Both the position numbers and the translations under genes were made by a program. The notes beneath the pieces are model-generated. The model had not been told where the DNA came from, made no database searches, and worked only from the letters and a program-made list of their open reading frames with translations. Below, in pieces: positions 1 to 7,456 of a stretch of 7,456 nt of DNA; positions within the stretch are counted from its first letter, which is position 1, and each line of letters starts with the position of its first letter. Origin of the DNA: Aquificaceae bacterium (GTDB lineage: Bacteria > Aquificota > Aquificia > Aquificales > Aquificaceae); NCBI GenBank assembly GCA_026983685.1, contig JALSTO010000299.1, forward strand, positions 1-7,456, written 5' to 3'.

Positions 1-1396
1 CCTGTTAGGCTTTCAGCTTTTTATACTTATCTACTTCACCACGGTAAACCTTATATACACTACGTTCATCCTCCTTTCAATGTACTATCTCTCAAAAAGG
101 GCTTTGCTCGCTTACAGGGAGAATCTGGAGGCTATGATATCAAACGTTCTCTACAGACCCATATCCATAATAGTCCCTGCCTACAATGAAGAAGAGACGA
201 TTGTAGAGAACATAAAATCCCTTCTCAAGCTTCACTATCCAGAGTTTGAGCTTGTGGTGGTTAACGATGGTTCTACCGACGCTACTTTTGAAAAGCTGAA
301 GGAAAGCTTTAGACTTGTAAGACTTGATAAGCCTGTAAGGCAAGTCCTGAAGCACAATCCTATAAGGGGGGTGTATGTTTCCTTGGACTTTCCAAACCTG
401 ATCGTTGTAGATAAAGAAAACGGAGGCAAAGCGGACGCCCTCAACTGCGGGATAAATGTAAGTAACTACCCCCTTTTCTGCTGTATAGATGCGGATTCTC
501 TCCTTGAGGAGTCTGCGCTCCTGAGGGCTTCTCGCCTGTTCGTTGAAGATAAGGAGGTCGTAGCAACGGGTGGAACTGTTAGGGTCTTGAACGGCTGTAA
601 GGTCAGGGGAGGACGTGTTGTTGAAATAAGGGCTCCAAAAAAATGGATAGAGGTATTTCAGGTTATTGAGTACACAAGAGGCTTCCTCATAGGCAGGACA
701 GCGTGGAATTTTCTGAACAGCCTTCTTATAATCTCGGGGGCGTTTGGCATATTCAGAAAGGATGTTGTTCTTGAGATGGGCGGGTACAGGCACACCGTCG
801 GTGAGGATATGGACCTTGTTGTCAGACTCCACAAGTACTGCGCTGACAAGGGTATAAGATACAAGATGGTATTTGTCCCCGATCCCATCTGCTGGACGCA
901 AGCTCCCTCGGATGTAAGCTCACTACTCAAACAGAGAAATCGCTGGCACAGAGGACTAATAGACAGCCTGTGGTACAGCAAAGGGATGTTCTTCAATCCC
1001 AAGTACGGATGGACGGGAATGTTTGGCTTTCCCTACTTCGTGTTTGTGGAAGCTCTCGGTCCCTTTGTTGAATTTCTGGGATACCTGGGTGTCGTGCTCT
1101 TTTATATATTTGGACTTTTGAACAGAGAGTTCGCCATCCTCTTCTTCTTTGTCGCCTTCTTCTGGGGCGTTCTGATAAGTATAGGCTCGGTGCTTCTTGA
1201 CAACCTGCTCTACAGGAGGTACGGCTCCATTAAAGATGTGATAAAGCTGTGTCTTTTCTCGTTGCTTGAGATATTCGGCTACAGACAGCTGATAGTTATG
1301 GAAAGGTTTGTTGCCACATTCCAGTTCTGGTACAGGGCTTGGGGTAAGCCGAAGAGGAAAAGGATGGAGGAAAAGGTTGATAAAGCTGTTGCTTAG
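1..1396 (+). CDS. Membrane-bound processive family 2 glycosyltransferase (5' end outside window)
   Basis: Likely transfers sugars from a nucleotide-sugar to a growing polysaccharide at the inner membrane (PgaC/cellulose-synthase-like GT2). The frame is open from base 2, and 26 hydrophobic residues (beginning LLGFQLFILIYF) precede the Met at base 80. That stretch is a membrane helix, so the true start lies upstream and the Met at 80 is internal. Counting from that Met, the GT-A motifs appear in order: VPAYNEEET (32-40), VVNDGST with D63, NGGKADALN (114-122), D137-A-D139 for metal and nucleotide binding, GED (241-243) with the catalytic Asp, and Q285-R-N-R-W289, the QxxRW mark of processive enzymes. 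About 312-345 and 350-374 are membrane segments, followed by a basic tail. The next gene starts inside its last 20 bases. The motifs make the family firm. The sugar and polymer are unknown; poly-N-acetylglucosamine is one option, from similarity to PgaC only. Confidence 0.93.
   Translation, partial: LLGFQLFILIYFTTVNLIYTTFILLSMYYLSKRALLAYRENLEAMISNVLYRPISIIVPAYNEEETIVENIKSLLKLHYPEFELVVVNDGSTDATFEKLKESFRLVRLDKPVRQVLKHNPIRGVYVSLDFPNLIVVDKENGGKADALNCGINVSNYPLFCCIDADSLLEESALLRASRLFVEDKEVVATGGTVRVLNGCKVRGGRVVEIRAPKKWIEVFQVIEYTRGFLIGRTAWNFLNSLLIISGAFGIFRKDVVLEMGGYRHTVGEDMDLVVRLHKYCADKGIRYKMVFVPDPICWTQAPSDVSSLLKQRNRWHRGLIDSLWYSKGMFFNPKYGWTGMFGFPYFVFVEALGPFVEFLGYLGVVLFYIFGLLNREFAILFFFVAFFWGVLISIGSVLLDNLLYRRYGSIKDVIKLCLFSLLEIFGYRQLIVMERFVATFQFWYRAWGKPKRKRMEEKVDKAVA
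1366..1370 (+). promoter_or_regulatory. Ribosome binding site fixing a TTG start
   Basis: GGAGG lies six bases before TTG 1377, inside the end of the glycosyltransferase gene. It is the best-placed ribosome site for the following gene and points to TTG 1377 rather than longer or shorter starts in the frame. Confidence 0.6.
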
Positions 1397-1859
1397 TGTA
1401 CAGACGCTGACAGCCCGCTTAGTGTTCGGCACCGTTGCTGTGGTTTCACTCCTTGTACTCTTCTTGGTAATGATAGACTTTCCGAAGGTAGAGCCTTACC
1501 TGTATCCCATTCATCTGTTGAAGAAAAAGCCCGAAAGAATATCTGAATATGTGTGGATCGGAGGCTACATGGAGGAAAAAGAGCTTATTGAGTTTTTAAA
1601 AAAGAACAATATAAAGGTCGTTATATCCCTGCTCAGTGATACGATGATACATGAGAAAAAGCTCCTGAGGAAAGAGAAAAGGTTCTTGGAAAGGAAAGGT
1701 ATAAAGTTTTACTCCGTGCCGATGAACCCTTTCCTGAAGGAAGGGAGAAAGGTGCGCAGGCTCAGACAGCTTCTCAGGAAAAGGAGAAAGGTTTATATCC
1801 ACAGCTACCTTGGAAGGATCAGGACCAGAATAGTAAAGGAGGTGTTAGGTGTTAAGTAA
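1377..1859 (+). CDS. Membrane-anchored phosphatase-fold protein with catalytic Cys replaced by Ser (probable pseudophosphatase)
   Basis: A 160-residue protein with one N-terminal membrane helix (about 15-33), a juxtamembrane EPYLYP (39-44) and a domain resembling dual-specificity protein phosphatases. I see the early strand YVWIGGY, the helix plus strand IKVVISLLSD, a strand KFYSVPM, and the P-loop at KVYIHSYLGRIRT. In active family members this reads H-C-x5-R; here Ser143 (AGC, 1803-1805) stands where the Cys nucleophile should be, while Arg149 and a following Thr are kept. No obvious general-acid Asp is seen after VPM. It probably cannot do normal Cys phosphatase chemistry and may bind phosphorylated ligands or partner with its downstream paralogue, which matches along its length. 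TTG 1377 is chosen for the GGAGG just before it and because it gives a length matching the paralogue (159). The frame extends to TTG 1308, but that adds unrelated residues overlapping the glycosyltransferase. Basic residues before the helix suggest the domain faces the periplasm. Confidence 0.8.
   Translation: MIKLLLSVQTLTARLVFGTVAVVSLLVLFLVMIDFPKVEPYLYPIHLLKKKPERISEYVWIGGYMEEKELIEFLKKNNIKVVISLLSDTMIHEKKLLRKEKRFLERKGIKFYSVPMNPFLKEGRKVRRLRQLLRKRRKVYIHSYLGRIRTRIVKEVLGVK
1837..1843 (+). promoter_or_regulatory. Strong ribosome binding site for the GTG start at 1849
   Basis: AGGAGGT ends five bases before GTG 1849. It sits inside the end of the preceding gene, whose stop falls after the start, so translation of the two paralogues is probably coupled. 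Confidence 0.7.
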
Positions 1860-2328
1860 GCTTTTAAGAGTAGCGTTCATTGTAGTGTTTGCAGGTTACA
1901 GTTTTACGCTCCTATCCGCCTACTTCAGCTACATTGAACCTTATCTTTTTCCCCTCCGTATGATACAGGGAGAAGCCAGATACGTGACTGAAAATATAAT
2001 AATAGGACCTTATCCTCATGAAAAGGACATAGAAAAACTCGTTAAAGTTGAGAAGGTTAAGATAATCATCTCTCTCCTGAACCCTTCCATACCCTTTGAG
2101 GGTTCTTTAGTTAAAAAAGAAAGGGAAATAGCTCAGAAATATGGGCTCAAATTCTACAACTTTCCTATGAGCTACATAGGCTTGGACACCAAGGAGAACA
2201 ACATTCAGGTTATGAAAATAAAGGAGGTTATCCGTAAGCACCCTGGAGAGAAGGTGTATATACACTGTTACCTGGGAAGGCACAGGGTTGAGTTCGTTGC
2301 AAGAAAACTGATTGGGGATGTAAAGTGA
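1849..2328 (+). CDS. Membrane-anchored Cys-dependent (dual-specificity-type) phosphatase-like protein
   Basis: A 159-residue paralogue of the preceding gene. It has a basic N-terminus, a membrane helix (about 7-27), the juxtamembrane motif EPYLFP (30-35), and a phosphatase-like domain from about 45. The P-loop KVYIHCYLGRHR contains His139, Cys140 (TGT, 2266-2268) and Arg146, the H-C-x5-R signature of Cys-based phosphatases, in which the Cys forms a phospho-enzyme. Asp113, a short distance after the FPM strand, is a candidate general acid. The residue after the signature Arg is Val rather than the usual Ser or Thr, so activity is likely but may be atypical. Topology by the positive-inside rule places the domain in the periplasm, where a lipid-linked or polysaccharide phosphate is more plausible than a cytosolic phosphoprotein; this is inference. 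GTG 1849 is chosen for its ribosome site. The gene overlaps its upstream neighbour by 11 bases and its downstream neighbour by 4. Confidence 0.82.
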   Translation: MLSKLLRVAFIVVFAGYSFTLLSAYFSYIEPYLFPLRMIQGEARYVTENIIIGPYPHEKDIEKLVKVEKVKIIISLLNPSIPFEGSLVKKEREIAQKYGLKFYNFPMSYIGLDTKENNIQVMKIKEVIRKHPGEKVYIHCYLGRHRVEFVARKLIGDVK

Positions 2329-3296
2329 AGAGCTTACCGCTCCTGTTAGTGATACTTTTTATCATCACATCCTGTTCTCCTAAGGCGGAGAAGCTCGTCG
2401 GTGTGAACTACGTTGATATTGTACAAGTAGGAGATAAGATAAGCCTGTCTTACTATAGAACGAATCCGCTGAAGCGGGAGTCAAGAGGTAAGCCTGTAAG
2501 GACAGAGGTAAACTGTAGAAAGGGACGCTCTCCCACCGCTCTCTGGGTATGGAACTTCAGGGATATATATAAAAATAAAGACAGGTTTCGTAATACTGTG
2601 CATAGGTATGGTGTGAAGAGGATATATTTACAGCACAGCGGTGAGCTAACTCCATCCGTGATAAGGGAAATTGAGAAGCTGGGACTGGAAGTCTTCCTGT
2701 TAGACGGCGGGAAGGATATAGTCCTCAACTTTCCCCTTGATAGGCTTGATTATCTTGGTGTTCGTGGTTTGCAGGTTGATATAGAGCCTTACCTTAACTG
2801 GGATTTCAACTTAAAAAGGGAAGATTACGTATCCAAGTATGTGGATTTTATAAGGCGGTTGAAGTCAGGGCTTGGGAAAAAGTACAGGCTTTCAGTGGTC
2901 ATACCTTTCTGGTATGACTCTATACACTATAAAGGAAAGAGCTTAACTGAACATGTATTTATGTATGCGGATGAGGTTGTGGTTATGGCTTACAGGAGCT
3001 CCCTTGAAAGGGTGCTTTCAACCGCTTCAGAAGAAATTTACCTGTCTCACAAGTACAGGAAGCCCCTCTGGATAGGTGTAGAGCTTACCCCTCAAGAGAA
3101 TGAACACCACCATATATATAGAGTTTCAAGAAAGAAGTTGGACTTTGTAGGAAGTTACAGGGTTAAGGGTGATACGTTGGTATTCCCCCACGACAGAGCG
3201 ATCTTGCTGAAGAGTATCAAATGCGAGGGGGTAAAGGGCTTCGTCCTCCACAGCTACCGCTCAATTAAAACAGAGGAGCTCACTTCCGTAAAATAA
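2325..3296 (+). CDS. Predicted lipoprotein with glycosidase-like TIM-barrel domain
   Basis: A 323-residue protein starting with GTG in a GTGA overlap with the preceding stop. The N-terminus (about 1-16) is a signal peptide ending in the lipobox ITSC with Cys17, so it should be lipid-anchored in the envelope. Residues about 70-313 look like an eight-stranded barrel of glycoside hydrolase type: ALWVWNF, RIYLQHSG, LEVFLLDG, then GLQVDIEPY (148-156), LSVVIPFWYD (189-198), YADEVVVMAYR (214-224), LWIGVELTP (248-256) and VKGFVLHSYRS (303-313). The D152-x-E154 end of strand four and the later MAY strand resemble family 18-like enzymes, where the Glu is the acid catalyst. The earlier Asp residues of the DxxDxDxE motif are replaced (Arg147, Gln150), so assignment to that exact family is not safe. 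The neighbouring polysaccharide synthase suggests a role in trimming or handling the polymer, as PgaB does for PgaC, though I see no PgaB-type deacetylase domain. The ribosome site is weak (GGGGA at 2314-2318), so coupling probably drives its translation. Confidence 0.8.
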   Translation: MKSLPLLLVILFIITSCSPKAEKLVGVNYVDIVQVGDKISLSYYRTNPLKRESRGKPVRTEVNCRKGRSPTALWVWNFRDIYKNKDRFRNTVHRYGVKRIYLQHSGELTPSVIREIEKLGLEVFLLDGGKDIVLNFPLDRLDYLGVRGLQVDIEPYLNWDFNLKREDYVSKYVDFIRRLKSGLGKKYRLSVVIPFWYDSIHYKGKSLTEHVFMYADEVVVMAYRSSLERVLSTASEEIYLSHKYRKPLWIGVELTPQENEHHHIYRVSRKKLDFVGSYRVKGDTLVFPHDRAILLKSIKCEGVKGFVLHSYRSIKTEELTSVK

Positions 3297-3301
3297 TAAC
3301 G

Positions 3302-3895
3302 ATGAACGATATATACAGGTCCATACTGCATGAACTCGGCAACAAGGTGTCTTTTCTGAAGAGCTATCTTGAAGCTTTTCCGGAGAAATTTAATAGGGAT
3401 ATAGTTGATGCGGTATCAAGCATAGATGTGCTCACCCACTACCTACTCGATCTGCACAGCCTTGAAGATAGGTCAAGGCTGGAAAAATTTGTGGAGCGGA
3501 TAAATATTAAAGATTTAATTGAAGATGTCTATCAGGAATTAAAGGTCTTTTCCTTCATCAATAATGTAAAGGTGGAGATAAAAGGTTGTGAGGGCATAGA
3601 GCTCAAAATTAATAAGTTTCTGCTAAGGAGGGTCCTCTTTAACCTCATTCACAACGCGATAAAGTTTTCTCCTAAGGATAGCAAGGTTAGTATAACCTGT
3701 TCATCGGATAAGGGCGGCAGACTGGAGCTGAGGATGCTTAACGCTGTTGATAGAAAAAAGCTTATTGAGAGCAAGGGCACGGAGATCGGTCTTGAGATAA
3801 CCAAGAACCTGATCAAGCTTCTGGGAGGGTATATAAAGGTAGAGCTCGGCAAAGATCCAGCGGAAGTCGTCCTCACTTTAATACCCCATACCTAA
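3302..3895 (+). CDS. Small histidine-kinase-like protein with degenerate ATP-binding domain
   Basis: A 197-residue soluble protein with no membrane segment and no sensor domain. Residues 3-57 look like the two-helix dimerisation domain of histidine kinases. His10 in HELGN (10-14) is the candidate phospho-site, and YLLDLHSLED (47-56) is typical of the second helix. The ATPase-like part follows, with an N-box at RRVLFNLIHNAIKFSP (Asn114 and Asn118) and a remnant of the G2 box at KGTEIGLEITKNL, then GG. Between strand LELRMLN and KGTEIGL there are only about a dozen residues, with no DxGxG (G1) box and no ATP lid. ATP binding is therefore doubtful, and the protein may act as a phosphotransferase in the manner of ChpT or Spo0B, or as a scaffold. 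No response regulator is visible here. The start is ATG 3302, five bases after the previous stop. It has no clear ribosome site, so reinitiation from the preceding gene is likely. This stretch is AT-richer than mutS. Confidence 0.8.
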   Translation: MNDIYRSILHELGNKVSFLKSYLEAFPEKFNRDIVDAVSSIDVLTHYLLDLHSLEDRSRLEKFVERINIKDLIEDVYQELKVFSFINNVKVEIKGCEGIELKINKFLLRRVLFNLIHNAIKFSPKDSKVSITCSSDKGGRLELRMLNAVDRKKLIESKGTEIGLEITKNLIKLLGGYIKVELGKDPAEVVLTLIPHT

Positions 3896-6507: not shown

Positions 6508-7011
6508 ATGAGGTTTATTCTTCTGGGCTTCCTGCTCCTCGGGCTTTCCTTCGCTGTTACAGAAAAGGAGTTCAAAGAGGACAGAGCCTACCTGAGCAGG
6601 GTGGAGAAGAGGCTTGAGGAGCTGGACAGGAGAGCTCAGAAGGAGGGTCCAAAAACAGAGATTATTGATGAGCTCAACTCTTACGGCTATCCCCTCTACA
6701 GTATGAAGGACAAGTACATGCTTGAGGAAGGAAGCAGGTTCCAACGCTTCTACCGCAGGGTGAGCGCTGTTTACGAGAAGCTCCTTTACGTCAAGAGAGG
6801 TCTCTTTCCCAAGATCCTCTTTGAGGAGGCTAAGGAGCTGAAGATACCGGTCTGCAGGGTGAAGGCTGAGGGAGAGGGTAGGAAAAGGCTTACAATAGGC
6901 ATCAAAGACCCTAAGAGCGAGAAGGACGTGCTTAAGCTCATGACCCAGACTCAGCTCCGGTACGCCCAGCTTTTGGGTATAGAGGAGATAAACTTCAAAA
7001 AGTGCAGGTGA
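6508..7011 (+). CDS. Small exported protein of unknown function
   Basis: A 167-residue protein I do not recognise. The N-terminus MRFILLGFLLLGLSFA is a Sec signal peptide with a likely signal peptidase I cut after Ala16 (SFA followed by VTE). There is no lipobox, so the mature form should be free in the periplasm or secreted. Residues about 20-46 are strongly charged with leucines at regular spacing and may form a short coiled coil. The rest is predicted mainly helical and very basic/acidic. The mature part has just two cysteines, Cys116 (IPVCRV) and Cys166, the second-last residue, which could form a disulphide. The gene follows mutS by 38 bases, has a strong ribosome site, and ends in TGA immediately followed by an in-frame TAG. 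Its position after mutS is probably not functional. Confidence 0.8.
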   Translation: MRFILLGFLLLGLSFAVTEKEFKEDRAYLSRVEKRLEELDRRAQKEGPKTEIIDELNSYGYPLYSMKDKYMLEEGSRFQRFYRRVSAVYEKLLYVKRGLFPKILFEEAKELKIPVCRVKAEGEGRKRLTIGIKDPKSEKDVLKLMTQTQLRYAQLLGIEEINFKKCR

Positions 7012-7033: not shown

Positions 7034-7456
7034 ATGGAACTTTACTGCGATGGAGAGAGGGTGTTCATTTCAAAGGACTACAGGGTTGAGGGTGTTTCCA
7101 AGAAGGAGTTTATTGAGAGCTCAATAACTGAGGTTGTTTGGCAGTCCGCAAAGCTCTCCGAGACCCCGAAGAGGCTTGCCAACACGAGGTACCACCTGAT
7201 AGGTGCTGGCGGTTCCCGTCTCATCAGGATGGACAGGAGAAACGGTGAGACCGTTGAGGTTGACGTGGGGAACGAGGTTAAAGATATAGACACTGACCTC
7301 AGGGAGGTCTTTCTAAACACCTCTGAAGGGATCTACAGAATACCTGCGGAGAGGTTCGTTGAGTCCGAGATGGTCAGGCTTCCTGTGTCGGATGTAATTG
7401 AGAAGCCCATAAGGTCCGTTGCCATCTTGGGCGGAGACCTCTACGTCCTCAGCAGG
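7034..7456 (+). CDS. Unrecognised protein, N-terminal 141 residues only (3' end outside window)
   Basis: An open frame of 141 codons running to the last base without a stop, begun by ATG with a good ribosome site 22 bases after the previous gene. The protein begins MELYCDGERVFISKDY, has no signal peptide or membrane helix and is probably cytosolic. It alternates short beta-type strands with turns. YHLIGAGGSRLIRMDRRNGE, GIYRIPAERF and SVAILGGDLYVLSR look like propeller-blade strands (hydrophobic strand, Gly/Asp turn, L-Y-V-L strand), so a beta-propeller continuing past the window is possible but unproven. Codon use is like that of mutS. I cannot assign a function. Confidence 0.75.
   Translation, partial: MELYCDGERVFISKDYRVEGVSKKEFIESSITEVVWQSAKLSETPKRLANTRYHLIGAGGSRLIRMDRRNGETVEVDVGNEVKDIDTDLREVFLNTSEGIYRIPAERFVESEMVRLPVSDVIEKPIRSVAILGGDLYVLSR

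Follow-up and report, generated by a model that had tools for sequence, protein, structure and literature searches.

Why would a bacterium keep two neighbouring phosphatase-like genes of which only one retains the catalytic cysteine? This question is raised by a 7,456-nucleotide stretch of DNA from an Aquificaceae bacterium (assembly GCA_026983685.1, contig JALSTO010000299.1), in the following called the window, which is a single contig (G000:C299) from a genome 1.48 Mb in size and 84.6% complete. On its forward strand lie gene 1 (1377..1859; 160 residues, TTG start) and gene 2 (1849..2328; 159 residues, GTG start), which overlap by 11 bases and each have a GGAGG six bases 5' of the start codon (1366-1370 and 1838-1842, respectively). 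Gene 1 is predicted to encode a membrane-anchored pseudophosphatase with the dual-specificity phosphatase (DSP) fold, and gene 2 a membrane-anchored atypical DSP with Cys140, His145 and Arg146 in its P-loop.

As the initial annotation proposed, the two genes are adjacent paralogs built to the same plan: their open reading frames (ORFs) are confirmed at these positions, the proteins align over 143 columns with 34% identity (E 1e-24), and they have in common an N-terminal hydrophobic helix, an EPYL[YF]P motif and the P-loop KVYIH[SC]YLGRxR. Likewise, the codons bear out the difference at the catalytic position, where gene 1 has Ser143 (AGC, 1803..1805), whereas gene 2 has Cys140 (TGT, 2266..2268), its predicted nucleophile by sequence and family conservation. 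To this loss of the Cys we add the loss of a P-loop His: at the corresponding position, gene 1 has Ile148 (ATC, 1818..1820) and gene 2 has His145 (CAC, 2281..2283), which stands at Cys+5, the spacing of His155 in AtPFA-DSP1 (PMC9038691, in excerpt). The P-loop of gene 2 in the window reads HCYLGRHR and thus contains the full CX5R signature by which Cys-based DSP-fold phosphatases are recognized.

Both losses are general among the homologs. We compared 16 gene-1 proteins, taken from nine genomes and seven further database entries, with 45 gene-2-type proteins, of which 27 form an Aquificaceae group and 18 are more distant. Database copies of the same proteins had been taken out (P0047, P0048, P0052 and P0055, corresponding to G023, G013, G062 and G017), as had the internally shortened P0028 and the hits in G010 and G025 (E 0.005 and 0.0013; no match at 1e-4); the gene-1 set includes two near-identical pairs, the window copy win1 with P0043 (97%) and G015 with P0050. 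At the catalytic position, gene 1 has Ser in 14 proteins, Gly in two and Cys in none, and at Cys+5 it has Ile (6), Phe (6) or Val (4) and never His, whereas the Cys and the His at Cys+5 are each present in 45/45 gene-2-type proteins. In the latter, the residue preceding the Cys is His in 43 and Asn in two. Sequencing error or recent decay as the source of the Ser is rejected in view of these 16 proteins without a single Cys, and the Ser is not private to the window. What is conserved, however, is the loss of the Cys (16/16) and not strictly the identity of its replacement: the Ser, encoded by AGC or AGT in eight genomes, gives way to Gly in the two near-identical copies G015 (L026 5520-6008, codon GGG) and P0050. 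These represent a second kind of dead P-loop and read YFGRFR for YLGRxR. The proposed rule that the inactive copy keeps Thr after the signature Arg and the active one has Val does not hold, as gene 1 has Val in seven, Thr in six and Ile in three proteins; Val is found in 27/27 Aquificaceae gene-2 proteins.

The remainder of the gene-1 loop is well preserved, with its His, Tyr, Gly and both Arg residues kept in 11/11 aligned rows. In a phylogenetic tree, gene 1 forms a single clade (support 100/100) next to that of the Aquificaceae gene-2 proteins (92/95), with the distant proteins falling outside through the choice of outgroup. Pairwise ratios of nonsynonymous to synonymous substitution rates (dN/dS) for three close pairs (G020, G022, G016) are 0.21, 0.13 and 0.37 in gene 1 and 0.06, 0.12 and 0.13 in gene 2; the other 25 gene-1 pairs were left aside, 17 being saturated at silent sites and eight having dS > 1.6. 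Gene 1 is thus the faster-evolving and more divergent of the two. Because it nevertheless forms one fully supported clade with dN/dS of 0.13-0.37 in the close pairs, the sequences indicate that the replacement of its Cys is kept under selection.

At the structural level, AlphaFold2 yields confident models for both proteins (mean predicted local distance difference test score 91.6 for gene 1 and 89.5 for gene 2), which Foldseek and VIA-align match to the DSP-fold structures of DUF442, LSF2, Siw14/AtPFA-DSP1, PTPMT1, STYX and TpbA. The top VIA Z scores of both models are obtained with the DUF442 structures 3gxg and 3gxh, the former of which is titled a putative phosphatase, and a complex of TpbA C132S ranks fourth among the structure matches of gene 1. 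Both genes are predicted from these models to have the DSP/protein tyrosine phosphatase (PTP) fold; the objection that the domains might not be of the phosphatase fold fails because the models are confident and match solved structures.

Sequence comparisons reach the same relatives from a greater distance. The A2 profile, built from 32 gene-2 rows (18 of the 27 Aquificaceae and 14 of the 18 distant proteins), matches LSF2 (1.7e-3), Siw14 (9.3e-3) and PTPMT1 (0.016) weakly in the PDB, and gene 2 as a lone query against PDB sequences gives nothing useful (best E 0.16). In single-sequence Pfam scans of gene 1 and gene 2, no PTP family attains its cut-off; Y_phosphatase2 is matched at E <=0.1 by 12 of the 24 members of the joint alignment A3, and DUF442 is absent from the 13 Pfam families that the 24 scanned members match at E 0.1. 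A phage or plasmid origin was rejected: gene 2 has no match in phages, the distant member P0039 none in plasmids, and the A2 profile finds no relative in viral contigs.

Several known systems invite comparison. Gene 2 resembles the plant and fungi atypical DSPs (PFA-DSPs) and Siw14, a group characterized by inositol pyrophosphate phosphatase activity, in its predicted fold match, its His at Cys+5 followed by Arg, its acid-less WPD-equivalent column and the basic residue ahead of the P-loop His (GRHR in gene 2, GKHR in Siw14), but differs in its predicted, possibly periplasmic, membrane anchorage, in having Val and not Thr after the Arg, and in being too short for the Lys186/Asp191 region. PFA-DSPs are natural exceptions without the WPD acid; in AtPFA-DSP1, His155 of the P-loop is the proposed general base and its mutation lowers activity by 95-98%, while in the Cys150Ser variant Ser150 aids substrate trapping (PMC9038691, in excerpt). 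The periplasmic DSP TpbA of Pseudomonas aeruginosa acts on exopolysaccharide (EPS) and biofilm, its C132S variant was made as a substrate trap, and no dead paralog appears in the excerpts of its description (PMC4409338). TpbA shares with our pair the EPS link and a fold match to both models, but is enzymatically active and possesses a general acid, and its likeness to either gene is at the level of the fold only (16-20% identity). Gene 1, with its predicted DSP fold and replaced catalytic Cys, resembles pseudophosphatases of the STYX type; STYX and MK-STYX, including the MK-STYX-PTPMT1 pair, are eukaryotic, and gene 1, by contrast, also lacks the P-loop His. To our knowledge, STYX and MK-STYX are neither encoded in tandem nor membrane-anchored. 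The DUF442 proteins (3gxg, 3gxh) resemble both models in being bacterial and of similar size; we know of no anchor and no dead twin among these putative phosphatases. Active/pseudo phosphatase pairs are known from eukaryotes (PMC10211241, in excerpt), where the dead MK-STYX is able to restrain a live DSP (PMC3977970, in excerpt).

The genomic context usually places the pair beside a predicted polysaccharide synthase. Directly upstream, and overlapping gene 1 by 20 bases, lies a predicted glycosyltransferase family 2 (GT2) polysaccharide synthase gene (2..1396, forward strand), which is truncated by the 5' end of the window; it matches Pfam Glycos_transf_2 (6.9e-23) and is PgaC/IcaA-like (NCBIfam PgaC_IcaA, 1.9e-38; 132.5 bits, under the family cut-off of 422.3 bits). 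DSP-family members are matched at 1e-4 in 11 of 136 Aquificota genomes, all within the window's family, from which 64 Aquificaceae genomes were covered. Both genes are found in eight of these 64 (G000, G013, G015, G016, G020, G022, G023 and G062) and are adjacent and overlapping in seven of the eight, the exception being G013; the contig of G020 starts immediately before gene 1. DSP and GT2 co-occur beyond chance among the 64 genomes (7/4/1/52; Fisher p 4e-6, with kinship uncorrected). A full cluster is seen in G062: response regulator, SPOR-TPR-YaiO barrel, HEAT protein, GT2, gene 1, gene 2, GH18-like protein and kinase (G062 was read as ORFs, and the names rest on domain matches of the G022 version).

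We favour, with belief and doubt in about equal measure, a reading in which gene 2 is a probably active phosphatase and gene 1 a likely pseudophosphatase that would bind a phosphorylated ligand or gene 2 itself and tune polysaccharide output. In this reading, the paralogy, the loss of Cys and His, the kept phosphate-holding YLGRxR loop of gene 1, the co-occurrence and the gene order come from sequence, and the fold from prediction. Gene 2 retains Cys, His and Arg in its P-loop, and so the residues that a Cys phosphatase uses to attack its substrate and bind phosphate; its dephosphorylation chemistry would be PFA-DSP-like and would proceed with no WPD acid. In gene 1, the P-loop would hold a phosphorylated ligand without turnover, like the engineered Cys-to-Ser traps; lacking Cys and His but keeping the rest of the loop, gene 1 looks like a dedicated trap or regulatory partner. 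Its binding partner would be either the phospho-ligand of gene 2 or the gene-2 protein, which it would thereby tune, and the balance of the two could set the EPS output of the GT2 synthase, for which TpbA in Pseudomonas offers a comparison. In a more specific form, which we consider unlikely, gene 1 would be a natural bacterial substrate trap, a permanently inactive DSP that captures at the periplasmic face the (di)phosphorylated membrane ligand which gene 2 hydrolyses with no catalytic acid, the two forming a switch that gates the polysaccharide synthase. If true, this capture-and-release switch would give bacteria their first described case of an active DSP with a dedicated pseudo partner; a search of open-licence PMC text, with subscription papers and preprints outside its reach, found no bacterial pseudophosphatase pair.

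A number of observations weigh against the favoured reading, beginning with the chemistry of gene 2. The general-acid column (Ser108), set from the LSF2 alignment by what we take to be the acid residue of LSF2, holds Ser in 19, Gly in seven and Thr in two of the 32 rows, and Tyr, Asn, Glu and Lys in one each, so that the canonical Asp general acid ahead of the P-loop is absent. The signature Arg is followed by Val, whereas the Thr found there in AtPFA-DSP1 matters for catalysis (PMC9038691, in excerpt), and all 27 Aquificaceae copies end 11-14 residues past this Arg; the region with Lys186 and Asp191 of AtPFA-DSP1 is therefore missing. Because of the acid-less column, the Val for Thr and the short C-terminus, gene 2 may be a slow phosphatase or no phosphatase at all. 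Its earlier description as active-looking is right for the Cys P-loop, but the sequence points to a PFA-DSP-like enzyme at best.

The linkage of the genes has its exceptions as well. G013 carries gene 1 and gene 2 on separate contigs, G019 has gene 2 without gene 1 and directly after GT2, and in G017 (79% complete) gene 1 is present and gene 2 was not found; in G015, the pair, the lipoprotein and the kinase lie away from the GT2 operon. In G021, gene 2 alone is seen, in a stretch that ends inside it. The pair is not obligate, because of G019, G013 and G017, and its linkage is strong but not strict; the expectation that the two genes stay together is accordingly true of most genomes with both, and untrue of G019 and G013.

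Beyond the Aquificota, a GT2-anchored search of 391 genomes recovered the synthase from 26, eight of them in the window's family. When the A1, A2 and A3 profiles were scanned against the ORFs of at least 90 residues, 18 of the 19 non-Aquificota GT2 loci (18 genomes) gave no DSP within the stretch read, three stretches (L099, L108, L110) being shortened by contig ends. On these grounds we rejected the idea that the DSP is strictly tied to the GT2 family; because of these 18 loci the DSP is at most an occasional accessory, not a core part, of this EPS-type cluster, with which it is found in two phyla. The sole exception is G285, from another phylum and the only match outside the Aquificota in two overlapping samples of 391 and 386 genomes, taken around the window and around G285, respectively. 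Its operon encodes a GGDEF regulator with two receiver domains, a HEAT protein, a GT2 that is 44% identical to that of the window, a YaiO barrel and a fusion protein of 317 residues (L073 7786-8736, reverse strand), with an N-terminal helix (by eye), a DSP domain with HCYLGIHR and then tetratricopeptide repeats (TPRs). As to the GGDEF regulator, DSPs of the TpbA type dephosphorylate a membrane diguanylate cyclase and thereby reduce EPS. The HEAT proteins of G285 and the Aquificota show no likeness by BLASTP, and open-licence PMC held no fitting paper on a YaiO/HEAT/glycosyltransferase cluster. Within the window's own family, G046 has a GT2 that is 43% identical and no DSP anywhere in the genome.

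Membrane topology, lastly, gives a divided picture. Net charge is higher before the helix than after it in every group (group means of +1.35 to +2.17 before and -0.33 to +0.5 after), which speaks for a domain on the outside, and in the distant group alone, raw counts agree with net charge on an N-in orientation. Raw Lys/Arg counts run the other way, with 2.73 before the helix and 3.73 after it in gene 1 and, by a small margin, 1.5 and 1.81 in Aquificaceae gene 2, which is why the periplasmic orientation of both domains is a weak prediction. The scarcity of Cys in both genes fits export without proving it: gene 1 is Cys-free in 15 of 16 proteins, and no Cys besides the catalytic one is present in 26/27 Aquificaceae and 12/18 distant gene-2 proteins.

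Other explanations have to be weighed against the same evidence. Gene 1 could be an independent phospho-ligand binder or scaffold that does not depend on gene 2 and is adjacent to it through tandem duplication, a view that we find doubtful but tenable: it draws support from G013, G017 and G019, where the genes are apart or one is found without the other, and from the faster evolution of gene 1, yet the genes are adjacent and overlapping in seven of eight two-gene genomes, and even G013 retains both. That both genes are functionless remnants with gene 1 decaying is scarcely credible; the greater divergence of gene 1 and its absence beside gene 2 in G019 would fit, but close-pair dN/dS is well below 1, the reading frames are open, and gene 1 forms one clade with invariant P-loop residues across two genera.

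The top-ranking matches to DUF442 raise a further thought, namely that gene 2 does not act as a phosphatase in vivo, that its single Cys carries a persulfide, as in DUF442/Blh sulfurtransferases, and that the two genes have a role in sulfur metabolism or sensing. We hold this to be highly improbable in view of the title of 3gxg, the full CX5R loop with its conserved Arg and His, the Y_phosphatase2 matches among the A3 members and the EPS-type operon context in two phyla.

Under the favoured reading of an active and a pseudophosphatase, the pair would be of interest beyond this family. The pseudophosphatases in the literature that we found are eukaryotic, with tangled partners and substrates. 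Here, a dead and a live copy are neighbours in a small cluster, both of about 160 residues and both confidently modelled, and so offer a simple system for asking whether a dead phosphatase traps a ligand or activates or restrains its partner. Furthermore, the loss comes with an internal control, as one clade lacks both of two P-loop residues that the other retains in every member. With gene 2, moreover, bacterial EPS clusters gain a candidate phosphatase that is acid-less and Siw14-like; TpbA is the periplasmic precedent that we found for such clusters.

Downstream of gene 2, the window continues with a predicted lipoprotein gene (2325..3296, forward strand; lipobox seen by eye), a weak GH18-like match (Pfam Glyco_hydro_18, E 3.2e-4; 20.9 bits, under the 29.6-bit cut-off) that brings to mind the hydrolases belonging to Pga and Pel systems. 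The first four ORFs of the window overlap in a chain, each with the next. The final gene of the cluster encodes a histidine kinase without a sensor domain (3302..3895, forward strand; HATPase_c 1.2e-8), and such a small sensor-less kinase also accompanies the pair in L023 (7428-8006), L025 (7421-7999) and L026 (7446-8012). Next after the pair or the lipoprotein, L023, L025, L026 and L058 each have an ORF similar to this kinase; in the last of these (G023), the GH18-like lipoprotein is missing between gene 2 and the kinase. A stand-alone response regulator is the first gene of the cluster in L023 and L025, and response regulators were seen by eye near GT2 in L093, L094 and L096, among four non-Aquificota loci listed ORF by ORF. 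The related GT2 operon of G046 (L053) has polysaccharide deacetylase-like and TPR proteins (by eye) and no DSP. The ORF after the kinase is, as we take it from its sequence, mutS. Of the two ORFs 3' of it (6508-7011 and 7034-7456), neither of which has a Pfam match above cut-off, the first has the appearance, by eye, of an exported coiled-coil protein.

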